64,000 nt of DNA from Geothrix edaphica (lineage in GTDB: Bacteria; Acidobacteriota; Holophagae; Holophagales; Holophagaceae), in the NCBI RefSeq assembly GCF_030268045.1, contig NZ_BSDC01000001.1:310001-374000 (forward strand). The letters run 5' to 3'. Shown here piece by piece: positions 22,443 through 29,037 of this stretch (the stretch's first letter is position 1; every line of letters starts with the position of its first letter). A program made the position numbers and the translations under genes. Below the pieces are notes generated by a model. That model worked only from the letters and a program-made list of their open reading frames with translations. It made no database searches and had not been told where the DNA came from.

Positions 22443-22541
22443 AAGCGGAGGGAAGCGGAGCGGCAGAGGAGAGCGGAGAAAAGAAGGTAACGAATTCTTC
22501 TTTCTCCGCTTTCCTCAGCTCCTCCGTTGTCCTCCGCTTCA
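22443..22541. repeat. Long imperfect hairpin of GCGGAG repeats
   Basis: The left arm (about 22443-22487) is a purine-rich run of GCGGAG-type words; the right arm (about 22497-22541) is largely its complement, with a few mismatches and indels. The centre (AACGAATTC) is unpaired. It would fold into a stem of about 40 bp as RNA or single-stranded DNA. Confidence 0.65.
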
Positions 22542-22714
22542 TCTGATCTTTTGTCCCTGGGCCCCGCTGTGGGCCGGGGAGCAAGGCGTGGCTACAGATC
22601 GTCTGGTGCGCCACCAGTCCGCAGTTGGCCGGTGTGGGCGGCGTCACCTGCCAACTGCTTTTCGCCACCGATTTCGGTGATTTCAGTGATTTGCTGCGAC
22701 GAGGCAGCCTGGGT

Positions 22715-22791
22715 GGAGCCGGGGGCGCCGCCGCCGGGCCTTATGGGAGCGCAGCCACGGCGCCCCCGGCTCCCTTCCGGCCAGGCCGGAA
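22715..22791. repeat. Two adjacent perfect hairpins
   Basis: First hairpin: GGAGCCGGGGGCGCCG at 22715-22730 pairs perfectly with 22758-22773 across a 27-base loop. Second hairpin: TTCCGGCC at 22775-22782 pairs with GGCCGGAA at 22784-22791. They sit inside the gene-free repeat segment. Confidence 0.7.
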
Positions 22792-22907
22792 GCCGCCTCC
22801 GGCGGGCCCATGCGGGAAACCCTCGACACGCCTTCCCCGTTTATCTCCGTGCATCACCGGCTGAATCTTTTTTAATCCGTGTCCATCCGTGTGAATCCGT
22901 GGCCCAT

Positions 22908-23423
22908 TCAGCTTTTCGTCTTGGATGCAGCGGCGAGCTGTTCTTCGGTGAGGCCGAAGAGGGAGGCGACGGGGCGGCCGCGGAGGCTGGCCATGAGGTA
23001 GAGCTGGCCGCGGTGGTGGGCCTCGTGCTCGGCCATGGCCCTCAGCCATTTCCATGTGGCCATAGAAGCCCCGGCGGGGTTCACGCAGGGGGCCAGCAGG
23101 TCCGCGTCCGTGAGCGTGCCGAAGAGGGCCAGGGATTCCGCGTGGCAGCGGTCCAGGTAGGCGCGCACCCCGTCCAGGCCCGCGGCCAGCCCCCCTGAGA
23201 GTTCAACCCCGTGGCCCGGGTAGGCGCTGGGGCGGCCCCGCACGTTCTCCGCGTACATGAAGCGCTCCAGCCCAGCCAGGTGGCGGAACAGGTCGCCGAA
23301 GGTGAAGGCCCCCGGCACCGGCGCCCACTCCAGGTCCTCGGGCGCCAGCGCCTCCAGCACCCGCACCGTGCGGGACCGGGCGTTGCGCCAGTAGGCGAGG
23401 AAGGAAGGAGTGTCCTGGAGCAT
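22908..23423 (-). CDS. DinB-family protein
   Basis: A 171-residue DinB/YfiT-like four-helix protein. The metal-site histidines are visible in FGDLFRHLAGLERFM and in RAMAEHEAHHRGQLYLMASL (His-x3-His). Members are metal-dependent thiol S-transferases or have no known role. The start at ATG 23423 gives the family's usual length but has no ribosome site. GATAAT six bases before the ATG could be a -10 box, so it may be made as a leaderless message. Beyond its start the sequence becomes A+T-rich and foreign. Confidence 0.82.
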   Translation of the reverse strand: MLQDTPSFLAYWRNARSRTVRVLEALAPEDLEWAPVPGAFTFGDLFRHLAGLERFMYAENVRGRPSAYPGHGVELSGGLAAGLDGVRAYLDRCHAESLALFGTLTDADLLAPCVNPAGASMATWKWLRAMAEHEAHHRGQLYLMASLRGRPVASLFGLTEEQLAAASKTKS

Positions 23424-23587
23424 GGATGTATTATCCCGGGGCGCCTGAAATCGTAGATGAAGCTCGATCAATCATAATTAAAGCATTGTGGCCAAAATAT
23501 CATTGAGAGTTGCCAGATAAACAATAATGATTATGATTACACGAAATCAATTGATTTACCGTATCAATGCAGTAAGTGCTTAATGCA

Positions 23588-26326
23588 CTAAAATCCATAT
23601 TTCAATTTTCTAAGATGAAATGCCTCTTGGCCTCCATCAAGTATTTCTAATATGGCATTTCTAATTTTAGGTTGTTCTATTGCTCCTTTTGATGAAACCC
23701 AACCTTGCTCTGCATTGGCTTCAAAATAAAGCACTTGATCTGCGTCGCCATTCACGACAATATTCGCATTGTGGGTGGCAAAGATTATTTGTCTTCTATC
23801 CTTCCGCATGCGGAGTGCGGGGAGAACTTTGTCCCATAGGAATCTATTATTTAAATCATCTTCAGGCTGATCAATTACTAATGGTCGATTGTCATCGCTA
23901 TCAAGTAAAAGAGTCAGAAGAACACTTGTACGTTCTCCTCCCGAGAGTTTTTCCAGCCCACGCCATTCTCCATTTTCTAGCTCCTTTTCGATCAGGACTA
24001 GATCAGGGCACCAAATGGATCGAAGTCGCCATAAAAACTCTCCCTGAAGTTTCTCCCAAAGTGTGCTCTTAGTTGTATCTCCTAGCTCTAAACCTGAATA
24101 ATTGCTTGAATTTCTTGCAAATTTACAAAGTAAATCATGCATATTCTCGATTGGTTTGGTGCGCCGTTCGTTCCACCAGCGTGTAATTCCAACCTGCGCA
24201 AATGAAGTTAGAAATTCTCCTAATTCGTCCTGATTTCCTTGGGGTATAAATCGAATCCGGATATCCCTATACCTAGATTGTACCGTTTTGCCAACTTCTG
24301 TTAATGATTCTCGATATTTTTCTCGAAGCTCTAACCGCGAGTTCTCTGTTTGGGTTAGTATATTATCTAATTCTTCAAGTTCTTTTTTGGTTCGTTCATA
24401 TGATGATTTCAAATTTTCGTAATCCCTGGCAGACCGAGAGAGGGCGTCAAATTGGTCAAGATCTTCGGGCCGACCACCTTGTTGAACAAGCATTACAGCC
24501 AGTTGGTGCTTTAGTTCCCGCTCATGTGTTTCACCGACATCAACCGCTCGTTGTATACGATCATGAATTAATTTCTTGGTTTCTTGAATGTCATGGACGC
24601 TCGCTCCAAATTTATTAAAATCTTCGATTAGAGAACCATTATCGTCCGTCAGTAATTTAACCAATGTTGGTTCACTTATTTCTGGCATAACGAGATTTCT
24701 AACAGACTCGCTGAGGCCATAAATATTGGATTCCATACCCACAATGAATGATTGAAGATTCCTAAGACGTGAAGTATCACGTTGAATATTATGAAGATCG
24801 GCAATCCCAAGATCCTCGAATCGAACAAGAGCTAATTTGGCATTATTTGAAATGTTGAATGCCGACTCTTCCTCGGTAAGTCTTGAAAAAATACCAGTGC
24901 GTTTTTCAGAAAGTTCTTTCAGTTGATGGTTTTTTCCCCTTATTTCAGATAAGAGAGTGTCAAGTTTGGGCTTTTGATCAGGATCCAAACCATGGATGAC
25001 TTCAGCACGACCGAAGTCATCACCTGCAAGTGTCTTCAATTCACCCTGTGTAAAGAACCAAGCAGGCCAGTTTTCTTTGGTGGGTCGCGATGCGGATTCA
25101 TATGTGTCAGGCGGAACCGAAACTGAAATACTCCCTTCCATCCCGGCAAATCTATGCTGCCCACGCTCCAACACCTCACTGGATAACCGTCTGTCGGAAG
25201 GCATAGGTAATTGACAATTTGACCTCAAGCCATCTAAGAAGGTGGATTTTCCAGTCATACTTCCACCAATGATACAATTGAAATATGGACTAAAGTGGAA
25301 GGTTTCTCCTCCGGTTTTAGAAAAAAATGAAGTACTTGATTTGATTTCTACCCATCTCATCCATGGATGGGTCGGTACACCTGGATCGGGTAGGGATGGA
25401 AGTAAGCCGTAGCTGCCATCTTCCCGATCCCCAAATGCCAACCGTATTCGTGAGTCATTAGCTAGGAACGCTTGTTTCAAGGCGGCGACGGTTGGCTCAG
25501 CCAGCTTGATTAAACTCCATCGATTTCCAATGTCCTCGACGCTATATGCATCGCTTCCATGAAAAAAACCATGGCGAAGTTTCTGAGCCGCTGGGAGTAG
25601 CCATTGGCGAGTAGATAGGGTCGTCTCCAGGCTTTTATCATCGCCTAGTTCAATTCCGTGGAGGCAGTGTTTGGCCGACTGTTGTAGAACTTGGCTTTTT
25701 TGCTCTTGAAAAAAACCGTGATTCGAAAATGCATGAGGGGCTAGAACAATAAAATCCCAACCACCTTCAGCTTGTTTTAAGTTTTGGAGTCCATCATAGG
25801 TTTCATCAAATTTTTTGGGAGACATCTTAAGGCTGTTGCCTTCATGATATGGGGCAATCCCGCCCATTGAAGCATTATATGCTCGTGTGTATCTTTCTCT
25901 CCCGATCTCCGGATCGAACAGGAATAAAAAATGAACTCCAGCGGCTCCATCGCTTAAATTGGGTTCAAACCCAGGAAAGACTGCGAATATTTTTTCGCGA
26001 AATGGTATCTCATCATCATCGATACCCGAGTTCCATTCCTCGACAATCTCCCAAACTAAGGATAATTGAGGAGTTGCAAATGGATTATGAGGAGTCAAGC
26101 CAAGTACATGGATTCCCTTCTTGATAGATTTTTGCAGAAAGACACGTGCGTAGATTTTGGGGTCGAACCGCGCATCTATTGGACTGATTCCGACTTCCGA
26201 GGGTACCTTGGTCCGACCTCCTAGGTGGTCATCGAGCGTATGTAGGTGAAGGTCTGATCGATACCACCTTACCCCGGGAATAAGCCCGCCCCAACTTGGA
26301 GCTAGCTGCCGAATAAAGGGGCTCAC
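23588..26326 (-). CDS. PHP-domain / SMC-like ATPase fusion (TrlF-like), probable defence protein
   Basis: A 912-residue protein. Residues about 20-300 are a PHP phosphoesterase domain: metal-site D25-L-H27-L-H29 in YRSDLHLHTLDDH, GLTPHNPFATP (usual TDHN read as TPHN), FIVLAPHAFSNHG and HGSDAYSVEDIG. An ABC/SMC-type ATPase follows, split by a long coiled coil: Walker A CIIGGSMTGKST near 355, signature KLSGGERTS near 795, Walker B PLVIDQPEDDLNN near 820, and H-loop IIFATHNANI near 850. The GTG start follows AGGGAGGATTT. Codon use and base content (two sampled lines 35-38 % G+C) differ sharply from all neighbours: recent transfer. Related PHP-ATPases (TrlF) and the similar RloC/PrrC ATPase-nucleases suggest phage-triggered nucleic-acid cleavage, which is inference. 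Confidence 0.85.
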   Translation of the reverse strand: MSPFIRQLAPSWGGLIPGVRWYRSDLHLHTLDDHLGGRTKVPSEVGISPIDARFDPKIYARVFLQKSIKKGIHVLGLTPHNPFATPQLSLVWEIVEEWNSGIDDDEIPFREKIFAVFPGFEPNLSDGAAGVHFLFLFDPEIGRERYTRAYNASMGGIAPYHEGNSLKMSPKKFDETYDGLQNLKQAEGGWDFIVLAPHAFSNHGFFQEQKSQVLQQSAKHCLHGIELGDDKSLETTLSTRQWLLPAAQKLRHGFFHGSDAYSVEDIGNRWSLIKLAEPTVAALKQAFLANDSRIRLAFGDREDGSYGLLPSLPDPGVPTHPWMRWVEIKSSTSFFSKTGGETFHFSPYFNCIIGGSMTGKSTFLDGLRSNCQLPMPSDRRLSSEVLERGQHRFAGMEGSISVSVPPDTYESASRPTKENWPAWFFTQGELKTLAGDDFGRAEVIHGLDPDQKPKLDTLLSEIRGKNHQLKELSEKRTGIFSRLTEEESAFNISNNAKLALVRFEDLGIADLHNIQRDTSRLRNLQSFIVGMESNIYGLSESVRNLVMPEISEPTLVKLLTDDNGSLIEDFNKFGASVHDIQETKKLIHDRIQRAVDVGETHERELKHQLAVMLVQQGGRPEDLDQFDALSRSARDYENLKSSYERTKKELEELDNILTQTENSRLELREKYRESLTEVGKTVQSRYRDIRIRFIPQGNQDELGEFLTSFAQVGITRWWNERRTKPIENMHDLLCKFARNSSNYSGLELGDTTKSTLWEKLQGEFLWRLRSIWCPDLVLIEKELENGEWRGLEKLSGGERTSVLLTLLLDSDDNRPLVIDQPEDDLNNRFLWDKVLPALRMRKDRRQIIFATHNANIVVNGDADQVLYFEANAEQGWVSSKGAIEQPKIRNAILEILDGGQEAFHLRKLKYGF

Positions 26327-26407
26327 AAATCCTCCCTAATCAGAAATCTAATCTAGGGATATAGCACGGGCCTGATTGCCAGGCTGAATTTATCTGAAAA
26401 AAGGACG

Positions 26408-26502
26408 ATGAAAAATACAATTTGTGACTTGCAATTAGAATGGGCGACTGGAGATCAAATTGGAAAACTACTCAGTACTGAAGTAAAGACATTACGAATG
26501 CT
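26408..26502 (+). pseudogene. Cut-off start of a second foreign gene
   Basis: Within the same A+T-rich island, ATG at 26408 is preceded by AAAAGGACG and opens a reading frame with coding-like composition for about 31 codons (MKNTICDLQLEWATGDQIGK, then LLSTEVKTLRML). It then runs straight into the reverse complement of the last codons of topA, where base composition jumps back to host. This looks like the first part of a gene truncated by the event that placed the island here. It is too short to assign. Confidence 0.4.
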
Positions 26503-29037
26503 CTACCCCATCGGCTCCTCATGCCCGCACTTGGGGCAGATGAGTACCTGGATGGGGTCCTTGCCCCGGGGCTTGCGGGTCTTCTCGCCCATGCTGGGGT
26601 TCTTGCAAGCGGGGCAGGTGACGGGGACGGGCTTGTCCCAGGCGGTGAAGTCGCACTTGGGGTAGTTGGTGCAGCCGTAGAAGACCTTGCCGAAGCGGGT
26701 CTTGCGGGGGCTGAGGCCGCCGCCGCACTTGGGGCAGGGCACGGCCAGGATCTCCTTCTTCACCGTCTTGCAGGTCGGGTAGTCGATGCAGCAGATGAAT
26801 TCGCCGTAGCGGCCGTGGCGCTTCACGAAGTCCTTGCCGCAGTTGGGGCACTTCTCCCCGATGGGCTCGTCCGGCGGCACGGGGATGCCCTTGGGATCGG
26901 CCTTCACGATGCCCTTGCACTTGGGGTAGTTGGGGCAGGCCCAGAAGGGGCCCCACTGGCCCTTGCGCAGGTTCATGGGCGTGGTGCCGCAGAGCGGGCA
27001 CTCCGGCGCGTCCTCGGGCTCCTCCATCTTCTCCAGGTCCGCCGTGTAGTCGCACTTGTCCTTCTCGGCCTCGGCGCTGTAGTTGGTGCAGCCCACGAAG
27101 AGCCCGTTGCGGCCGATGCGCTTGAGCAGCACGCCCGGGTGCTTCTTCCGGTCGCCGCACTTGGGGCACTTCTCGCCCGTGGGCACGCCGGCCTTCAGGT
27201 TCTGCATGTCCTGCCCGGCAGCGGCCAGGGCCTGCTCGAAGGGGCCGTAGAAGTCGGTCATGGCCTTCTTGAAGGTGAGCTTGCCGTCCTCGATGAGGTC
27301 GAGGTTGCCCTCCATGCCCGAGGTGTACTTGCTGTCCAGCAGGCGCGGGAAGCCCTGGATGAGCAGCTCGGTGACCACCATGCCCAGCTCCGTGGGCTTG
27401 AAGCGGCCCTCGTGCTTCTTCACGTAGTCCCGGTCCTGGATGGTGCTGATGATGCTGGCGTAGGTGGAGGGGCGGCCGATGCCGTCCTCCTCCAGTTCCT
27501 TCACCAGGGTGGCTTCGTTGAAGCGGGCGGGGGGCTTGGTGAACTGCTGGTCGGCGTCGAGCTGCTCCAGCTTCAGGGCCTCGCCCAGCTTGAGGGCCGG
27601 TAGCAGGGCCTCGTCCTCGTCCTCCTCGTCGCCCTTGGTGGCGTCGGCGATGGACTCGGCCTCGGTCTCCGTCTTCTCGGCGCGGTAGACCGCCAGCCAG
27701 CCGGGGAAGCGCTCGATCTCGCCCTTGGCCTCGAAGAGCGCCGTCTCCTTGCCGACTTCCGCTTCCGTCTGCACCACCGTCTCGTCGAAGCGCGCGGCCT
27801 CCATCTGCGAGGCCATGGTGCGCCGCCAGATGAGGGCGTAGAGGCGGAACTGATCCGGTTCGAGGTGCCCGCGCAGGGACTCGGGCGTGCGGGTGATGTC
27901 CGTGGGGCGGATGGCCTCGTGGGCGTCCTGGGCGCCGGCCTTGCCGGTGTAGACCCGGGCCTTGGCGGGCAGGTACTCCTTGCCGTACTTCTTCGCGATG
28001 AACTCGCGGGTGGCGTCGATGGCCTCGGGGGCCATGCGGGGCGAATCCGTGCGCATGTAGGTGATGAGGCCCACGGGGCCCTCGCCGAAGTCCACGCCCT
28101 CGTACAGCCGCTGGGCGTTCTGCATGGTGCGGCTCACGCTCATCTTCAGCTTCTGGGCCGATTCCTGCTGCAGCTTGGCGGTGGTGAAGGGGGCGGCGGG
28201 GTTCCGCTTCTTCTCCTTGGTCTCCAGGCTGGTGACCGTGTAGGTGGCCTTCTCCAGCTTGGCCTTCAGGTCCTTGGCCTGGACGGCGTCCGCCACGCGA
28301 CGCTTGGTCTCCTTGTTGCCCAGCTGCAGGGCCTCGCCGCCCACCTTCACCAGCTTCATCCAGAAGCTGGGGGGCAGCTTGGCGGCGAACCGGCCCTTCA
28401 GCACCCAGTACTCGACGGGGTTGAAGGCCAGGATCTCCTTCTCGCGGTCCACGATGATGCGCACGGCCACGCTCTGGACGCGGCCGGCCGAGAGGCCCCG
28501 GCGCACCTTGTCCCAGAGCACCTGGCTCACCTTGTAGCCCACCAGGCGGTCCAGCACGCGGCGGGCCCGCTGGGCGTCCACCAGCTTCTTATTAATGACC
28601 GTGGGCGCGGCCATGGCCTTCTGGATGCCCGCCGGGGTGATCTCGTTAAACAGGACCCGGCTCACCGGCAGGCTCTTGGGCGGCTTGATGGCCTCCAGCA
28701 GGTGCCAGCTGATGGCCTCCCCCTCGCGGTCGGGGTCGGTGGCGAGCACGAGCTCGGAGGCGGACTTGGCGGCGGTGCGCAGCTCCCGGACCACCTTCTC
28801 CTTGGCCGGGCTGATCTCGTATTCCTCCTGGAACCCGTTCTCGATGTCCACGCCCAGCTTGCGGGGCAGATCCCGGATGTGGCCCACGGAGGCCATGACC
28901 TTGTACCCCTTGCCCAGGTACTTGGTGATGGTCTTGGCCTTGGAGGGGCTTTCGACGATCACGAGCTTCGAGCCCTTCACGGTGGGCTCGGCGGGGCTTG
29001 GTGCACCGGCATCGTCTTGCTTCAGCTTCCTGGCCAC
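26503..29037 (-). CDS. topA: DNA topoisomerase I
   Basis: An 844-residue type IA topoisomerase that relaxes negative supercoils. The Toprim domain is at the start (KLVIVESPSKAKTITKYLGK and ATDPDREGEAISWHL with its DxDxEG-like acid cluster); the active-site Tyr is in GLITYMRTDSPR near residue 330; HEAIRPTDI follows. The C-terminus has at least five Cys4 zinc ribbons (CPKCGDRKKHPG, CPLCGTTPMNLR, CPNCGKDFVKRHG, CPKCGGGLSPRK, CPACKNPSMGEK, last pair CPKCGH), more than in E. coli. An acidic linker (EEDEDEALL) is seen near residue 480. Its 3' end marks the edge of the foreign island. Possibly cotranscribed after dprA (48-base gap). Confidence 0.96.
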   Translation of the reverse strand: MARKLKQDDAGAPSPAEPTVKGSKLVIVESPSKAKTITKYLGKGYKVMASVGHIRDLPRKLGVDIENGFQEEYEISPAKEKVVRELRTAAKSASELVLATDPDREGEAISWHLLEAIKPPKSLPVSRVLFNEITPAGIQKAMAAPTVINKKLVDAQRARRVLDRLVGYKVSQVLWDKVRRGLSAGRVQSVAVRIIVDREKEILAFNPVEYWVLKGRFAAKLPPSFWMKLVKVGGEALQLGNKETKRRVADAVQAKDLKAKLEKATYTVTSLETKEKKRNPAAPFTTAKLQQESAQKLKMSVSRTMQNAQRLYEGVDFGEGPVGLITYMRTDSPRMAPEAIDATREFIAKKYGKEYLPAKARVYTGKAGAQDAHEAIRPTDITRTPESLRGHLEPDQFRLYALIWRRTMASQMEAARFDETVVQTEAEVGKETALFEAKGEIERFPGWLAVYRAEKTETEAESIADATKGDEEDEDEALLPALKLGEALKLEQLDADQQFTKPPARFNEATLVKELEEDGIGRPSTYASIISTIQDRDYVKKHEGRFKPTELGMVVTELLIQGFPRLLDSKYTSGMEGNLDLIEDGKLTFKKAMTDFYGPFEQALAAAGQDMQNLKAGVPTGEKCPKCGDRKKHPGVLLKRIGRNGLFVGCTNYSAEAEKDKCDYTADLEKMEEPEDAPECPLCGTTPMNLRKGQWGPFWACPNYPKCKGIVKADPKGIPVPPDEPIGEKCPNCGKDFVKRHGRYGEFICCIDYPTCKTVKKEILAVPCPKCGGGLSPRKTRFGKVFYGCTNYPKCDFTAWDKPVPVTCPACKNPSMGEKTRKPRGKDPIQVLICPKCGHEEPMG

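Follow-up and report, generated by a model that had tools for sequence, protein, structure and literature searches.

A putative stand-alone TrlF anti-phage gene in a variable slot downstream of topA in Geothrix edaphica

Between topA and a gene of the DinB_2 superfamily, the genome of Geothrix edaphica carries a single A+T-rich gene, and the question raised by this locus is where the gene comes from, what its product does and whether that product can act alone. In the window (the whole stretch of 64 kb of DNA that was analysed), an earlier note had described an A+T-rich island whose gene has its own GTG start and ribosome site, and both descriptions held (Table 1). The G+C content of the gene is 39-48% against 65-77% in its surroundings (500-bp steps), its third-position G+C (GC3) is 0.36 against 0.97 for the adjoining topA, and it forms the sole dip of the window, no other 1-kb bin being nearly so low in G+C. 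The ORF analysis of the window gave an intact frame of 912 codons, and the edges of the A+T-rich stretch lie at most about 50 bp from the topA stop codon and the DinB start. The neighbour that had been named dinB encodes a DinB_2-superfamily protein (PF12867) and not DNA polymerase IV. Vertical conservation of the gene between DinB and topA was tested as a refutation, and its absence from all 46 congeners searched favours the foreign reading; taken together, the GC3 and this absence support a foreign and recently acquired gene. An Rfam scan of positions 22600-27000 gave no RNA family, scans for promoters and terminators yielded nothing beyond the level of shuffled sequence, no intact tRNA was found in the window, and no direct repeats usable as att sites were found around the island.

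Table 1. Features of the locus, in positions of the window
Feature	Position	Strand	Description
TrlF-family gene	23588..26326	-	912 aa, GTG start; PHP domain and SMC/Rad50-like ATPase split by a coiled coil
Ribosome-binding site	26327..26336	-	GGGAGG, then ATTT before GTG (sequence); 4 bases upstream of GTG
PHP phosphoesterase domain	25427..26275	-	about residues 18-300; alignment and Foldseek
First ATPase lobe	25237..25347	-	residues 327-363; Walker A GGSMTGKST at 354-362
Long antiparallel coiled coil	24262..24975	-	about residues 451-688; AlphaFold model
Second ATPase lobe	23720..24018	-	residues 770-869; LSGGER, VIDQPED, ATHNAN; Pfam AAA_21/SMC_N and alignment
Non-coding stretch at the trlG position of relatives	23425..23587	-	163 bp; no trlG remnant
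topA	26503..29037	-	conserved flank; stop codon (26503) is the slot edge
DinB_2-superfamily gene (PF12867)	22908..23424	-	other flank; start codon at about 23424
Variable A+T-rich slot	23425..26502	.	topA stop codon to DinB start; contents differ in every congener examined

The 912-residue protein matches the NCBIfam equivalog model TrlF_fam_ATP (NF045780) with 365 bits, residues 18-911 aligning with positions 2-944 of the 944 in the model. The margin over the curated cut-off of 350 bits is small, and this end-to-end match above the cut-off confirms the membership of the TrlF family that had been suggested from the sequence. The NCBIfam models of Ppl and Spaf_1101 also match, each below its own cut-off. 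Pfam finds the C-terminal ATPase only (AAA_21/SMC_N), the PHP domain not being above its cut-off there; the expected PHP profile match therefore fails with Pfam alone, and the domain is present according to the full-length TrlF profile match, the conserved metal-ligand positions and the predicted structure. The PHP residues named previously (D25-L-H27-L-H29, TPHN at 78-81 and HGSDAYS at 256-262) are all in place, and the split ABC/SMC ATPase is complete as claimed, with the Walker A in the first lobe and the signature (LSGGER), Walker B (VIDQPED) and H-loop (ATHNAN) in the second. In an hmmsearch against the PDB, SMC and Rad50 heads match the protein. An AlphaFold model of middling quality (pLDDT 70, pTM 0.47), built from 11 clade sequences, places the coiled-coil helices at 452-504, 508-544, 566-615 and 636-685. 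With this model, Foldseek retrieved the PHP phosphoesterases 3o0f/3e0f for the N-terminus (probability 1.00); for the ATPase it gave SMC heads and two defence complexes, JetABC and LmuAB. Normalisation to the whole query yields low TM-scores, which is to be expected of a model with several domains, and these matches are therefore taken as domain assignments only. The protein has TPH and DAY in place of the canonical TDH and DxH motifs of the bulk of the TrlF family, two motifs that are not part of the curated NF045780 definition.

A profile-guided scan, with one genome per species, returned ten relatives at 34-38% identity, hosted by Acidobacteriota, Chromatiaceae, Arenicellales, Oligoflexia and one deltaproteobacterium. 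The gene under study and its close relatives form one supported group in the tree (SH-aLRT 100), taken here as a clade of 12 members comprising the gene itself and 11 distinct relatives (L132-L141 and G258; L122 is identical to L141). No relative of this clade was found in the viral contigs searched. The protein shares with the TrlF family the full-length profile match above the cut-off and the combination of a PHP domain with a split ATPase, but it belongs to a divergent, low-scoring clade: of the other Acidobacteriota TrlFs that pass the cut-off, most score about 420-700 bits, compared with 365 here. The markers of the clade are TPH for TDH, DxY/I/V for DxH and a Walker A of the form GGSM(T/S)GKS; the gene under study differs from the family by TPH, DxY, GGSMTGKS and the lack of trlG. 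In the alignment, H27, H29, D33, H80, E121, H198 and D259 are invariant in all 12 members, residue 79 is always Pro and residue 261 is never His. Since TPH occurs in all 12 members, TPHN is a character of the clade and not damage. The loss of the last-motif His (DxH to DxY/I/V) and of the TDH Asp may weaken one metal site. We take the changed DxH His to be a ligand of the third PHP metal site, and two-metal catalysis by the PHP domain of the clade is therefore plausible. Outside the clade, the PHP domain of some TrlFs is degenerate or absent in the alignment, which indicates that PHP catalysis is not required in every TrlF; no link between the presence of trlG and the integrity of the PHP domain was visible in the alignment by eye.

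The comparison of the slot was performed on congeners with topA on a usable contig. Over the 1.2 kb compared, topA is 89-98% identical among congeners, whereas the sequence 3' of its stop codon is different in 30 of the 30 congeners compared and the stop codon itself varies. A+T-rich cargo lies in the topA-DinB interval of 20 of the 37 genomes of the genus with readable sequence (source genome included), and in 14 fetched regions of 14-16 kb, 71 of the 120 bins within the interval are low in G+C, but only 4 of the 591 beyond it. All-against-all BLASTP of the cargos gave one related pair, the rest being mutually unrelated. In sister species the cargos with family matches are GmrSD_N/NsnA with RiboL-PSP-HEPN (G056, G017), a NACHT protein (G018), an N6-methylase with a specificity domain (G013), PIN (G024), a Sll1717-type ATPase with a weak TIR match (G040), STAND-TIR (G030), PD-Lambda-5 A+B (G041), a retron III-A-like RT with PRTase adjoining topA (G025, L093), PDC-M70A (G027) and, at normal G+C, PDC-M04A with a DNA methylase-like ORF (G039). 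The topA-DinB interval is a defence hotspot, with conserved flanks and varied defence systems across related genomes. Non-defence cargo occurs too, that of G037 matching a putative phage structural family, and the A+T-rich cargos of G011, G020, G042 and G044 (L045, L084, L086, L090) have no, weak or uninformative family matches. Such unmatched cargos are candidates for new defence genes and make the slot a practical lead toward new defence systems.

Beyond the genus, the sequence that follows topA mostly has ordinary G+C, so the hotspot looks restricted to the genus level. Like the core defence hotspots cDHS1/2 of P. aeruginosa (PMC10250203), it has defence systems of lower G+C exchanged between fixed core flanks and no one mobile element, but it holds one cargo of 1-4 kb per species, starts directly at the topA stop and belongs to another phylum. 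The slot ORF lists were read by eye, and no integrase-like ORF was conspicuous in them. In three genomes (G012, G014, G028; L056, L057, L068) the 3' half of tRNA-Thr(CGT), about 50 nt long, directly follows the topA stop and is probably the scar of a past site-specific integration. A candidate for such a scar at the slot edge of the genome under study was rejected, being a 9-base match only (p 0.012 by shuffling, with 37 sites tried). How defence genes are exchanged without visible integrases is a testable question raised by the abrupt boundary at the topA stop codon. No description of a topA hotspot was found in the literature searched, and the slot may be an undescribed one.

The neighbours of homologues were surveyed as well. 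One close relative (L133, 38% identity) lies inside a BREX system in the order PglX-trlF-trlG-PglZ-BrxL, with retron-like DRT genes alongside, and more distant TrlFs occur on an IncC plasmid within a type I R-M operon of the order hsdM-hsdS-trlF-trlG-hsdR, in a P2-like phage where the replication and portal genes are the neighbours on either side, and on an archaeal plasmid beside DUF1156, DUF262 and DUF499 genes. Both the contexts of the relatives and the contents of the slot make defence the best reading of the TrlF gene. A defence function is well supported by context, and the anti-phage role proposed in the earlier note is strengthened by the defence systems of the sister species and by the BREX, R-M plasmid and P2-like phage settings.

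The locus nevertheless departs from its relatives in one respect. In the 11 distinct close relatives, trlF is directly followed, usually within about 10 bp, by trlG, a gene for a protein of about 400 residues; a domain scan of one such downstream protein (P0002) gave SLFN_AlbA_2 and HATPase_c_4, the same two domains as in the TrlG of Photorhabdus (PMC7554251), a study beyond which the literature searched gave nothing on TrlF. By its TrlF the gene under study groups with TrlF-TrlG operons (PHP-ATPase plus Schlafen AlbA_2/HATPase, an arrangement also known inside BREX and type I R-M loci), whereas here trlG was searched for and is absent from both the locus and the whole genome. Three points go beyond the earlier reading: the two-gene arrangement across the clade, the lack of trlG in this case, and the topA hotspot. 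A TrlF on its own may be incomplete, given the pairing in each of the 11 distinct close relatives, and since TrlG, a Schlafen-type RNase, may be the main effector in the relatives, its absence is our chief doubt. In a wider sample, trlG adjoins 14 of 28 other TrlFs (within the 1.5 kb searched), so that a solitary TrlF is unusual in this clade only and not in the family.

The gene could accordingly be an orphaned sensor half, TrlF being an ATPase regulator and TrlG the effector, in which case it would be inactive, decaying or a regulator only. Besides the constant pairing in the relatives, this reading draws on Photorhabdus, where the growth-restricting mutations are all in trlG and none in trlF (PMC7554251), on the several other TrlFs with a degenerate or absent PHP domain, and on BREX loci, in which Schlafen-type proteins bearing a kinase-like domain at the C-terminus are described as RNase effectors (PMC12839542). 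However, the 912-codon reading frame is unbroken and retains every ATPase motif together with seven PHP ligand positions, TrlFs without an adjoining trlG are frequent elsewhere in the family, and the tree fits either a loss of trlG in the lineage under study or a branching of this lineage before the trlG-bearing relatives. We hold an orphaned half, although the leading alternative, to be rather unlikely.

The account that we consider probable, with clear room for doubt, is that of a horizontally acquired stand-alone TrlF anti-phage system in a genus-specific defence slot downstream of topA. The protein has the plan of Ppl (NF042955, PADLOC PDLC02208), in which a single gene encodes a PHP domain followed by an ATPase with a coiled coil, and the profile match to Ppl is significant and best over the C-terminal ATPase; at 145 bits against a cut-off of 1000, however, the gene under study is not a Ppl. 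Since TrlF has the plan of Ppl but lies outside its family, we propose by analogy, and with moderate confidence, that TrlF may be an ATPase-gated PHP nuclease resembling Ppl, whose own activity is that of an NTP-inhibited ssDNA 3'-5' exonuclease. How the protein works, and that it suffices by itself, we infer as follows. The two ATPase lobes would pair in ATP-dependent dimers, and the coiled coils and heads would sense an abnormal nucleic-acid state in the infected cell, for example free DNA ends or a drop of the nucleotide pool as reported for Ppl. Sensing would release the PHP domain to degrade nucleic acid, by which either the phage or its infected host would be stopped; since trlG is missing, no effector other than this domain would be left. 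Defence by the lone protein, if true, would separate the roles of TrlF and TrlG and mean that a PHP domain can be the effector. A more specific scenario, in which the topA stop of the genus would be an exchange point holding one small defence cassette per species, replaced by a site-directed mechanism linked to tRNA-Thr(CGT), and the TrlF cassette a former TrlFG that became self-sufficient and PHP-reliant once its Schlafen partner was lost, is conjectural and in our view unlikely.

The earlier likening to RloC/PrrC stands at the level of the ATPase only, Ppl being the better functional comparison. An ABC-ATPase-linked RNase of this type, cutting tRNA anticodons, would share with RloC the SMC/Rad50-like ATPase with a coiled coil and with prrC the association with type I R-M, inside an operon of which a TrlFG is found, and RNA is conceivable as a substrate given that the PHP exoribonuclease RNase AM is also among the Foldseek matches (E 0.03). 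Yet no PrrC or RloC family match was obtained in Pfam, NCBIfam or PADLOC, and the recognisable catalytic domain is a PHP domain, different from the anticodon-nuclease domain and at the other end of the protein, which makes this activity improbable. A non-defence regulator of growth or stress is quite improbable too: the temperature-restriction locus that gave TrlF its name, the Photorhabdus TRL operon, does limit growth at high temperature and is induced by a temperature up-shift (PMC7554251), but its phenotype maps to trlG, absent here, growth arrest is compatible with an abortive defence system, sister species carry known defence systems in this slot, and relatives occur in BREX, R-M and phage contexts. 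That the gene is a selfish or decaying passenger, beside topA by chance in a coincidental hotspot, would agree with its recent acquisition and with the absence of mobility genes seen in the slot, but the concentration of low-G+C bins there and the fact that complete known systems have settled in it time and again make a placement by chance, and with it this reading, very unlikely.

Some minor features were recorded beside these results. Fragments of the 5' end of the DinB gene (L040, L043, L048, L051, L052) are duplicated beside a full copy in G019, G013 and G039 and stand alone in G017 and G027, as if the DinB end had been repeatedly broken. A dispersed repeat resembling 'atccgtgtccatccgtgtgaatccgtgg' lies at about 22443-22539 and 22830-22912 of the window and occurs near the slot in congeners too. 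In G258 (C1:111426-118368; L188/L112), two different TrlF-TrlG pairs stand in tandem.
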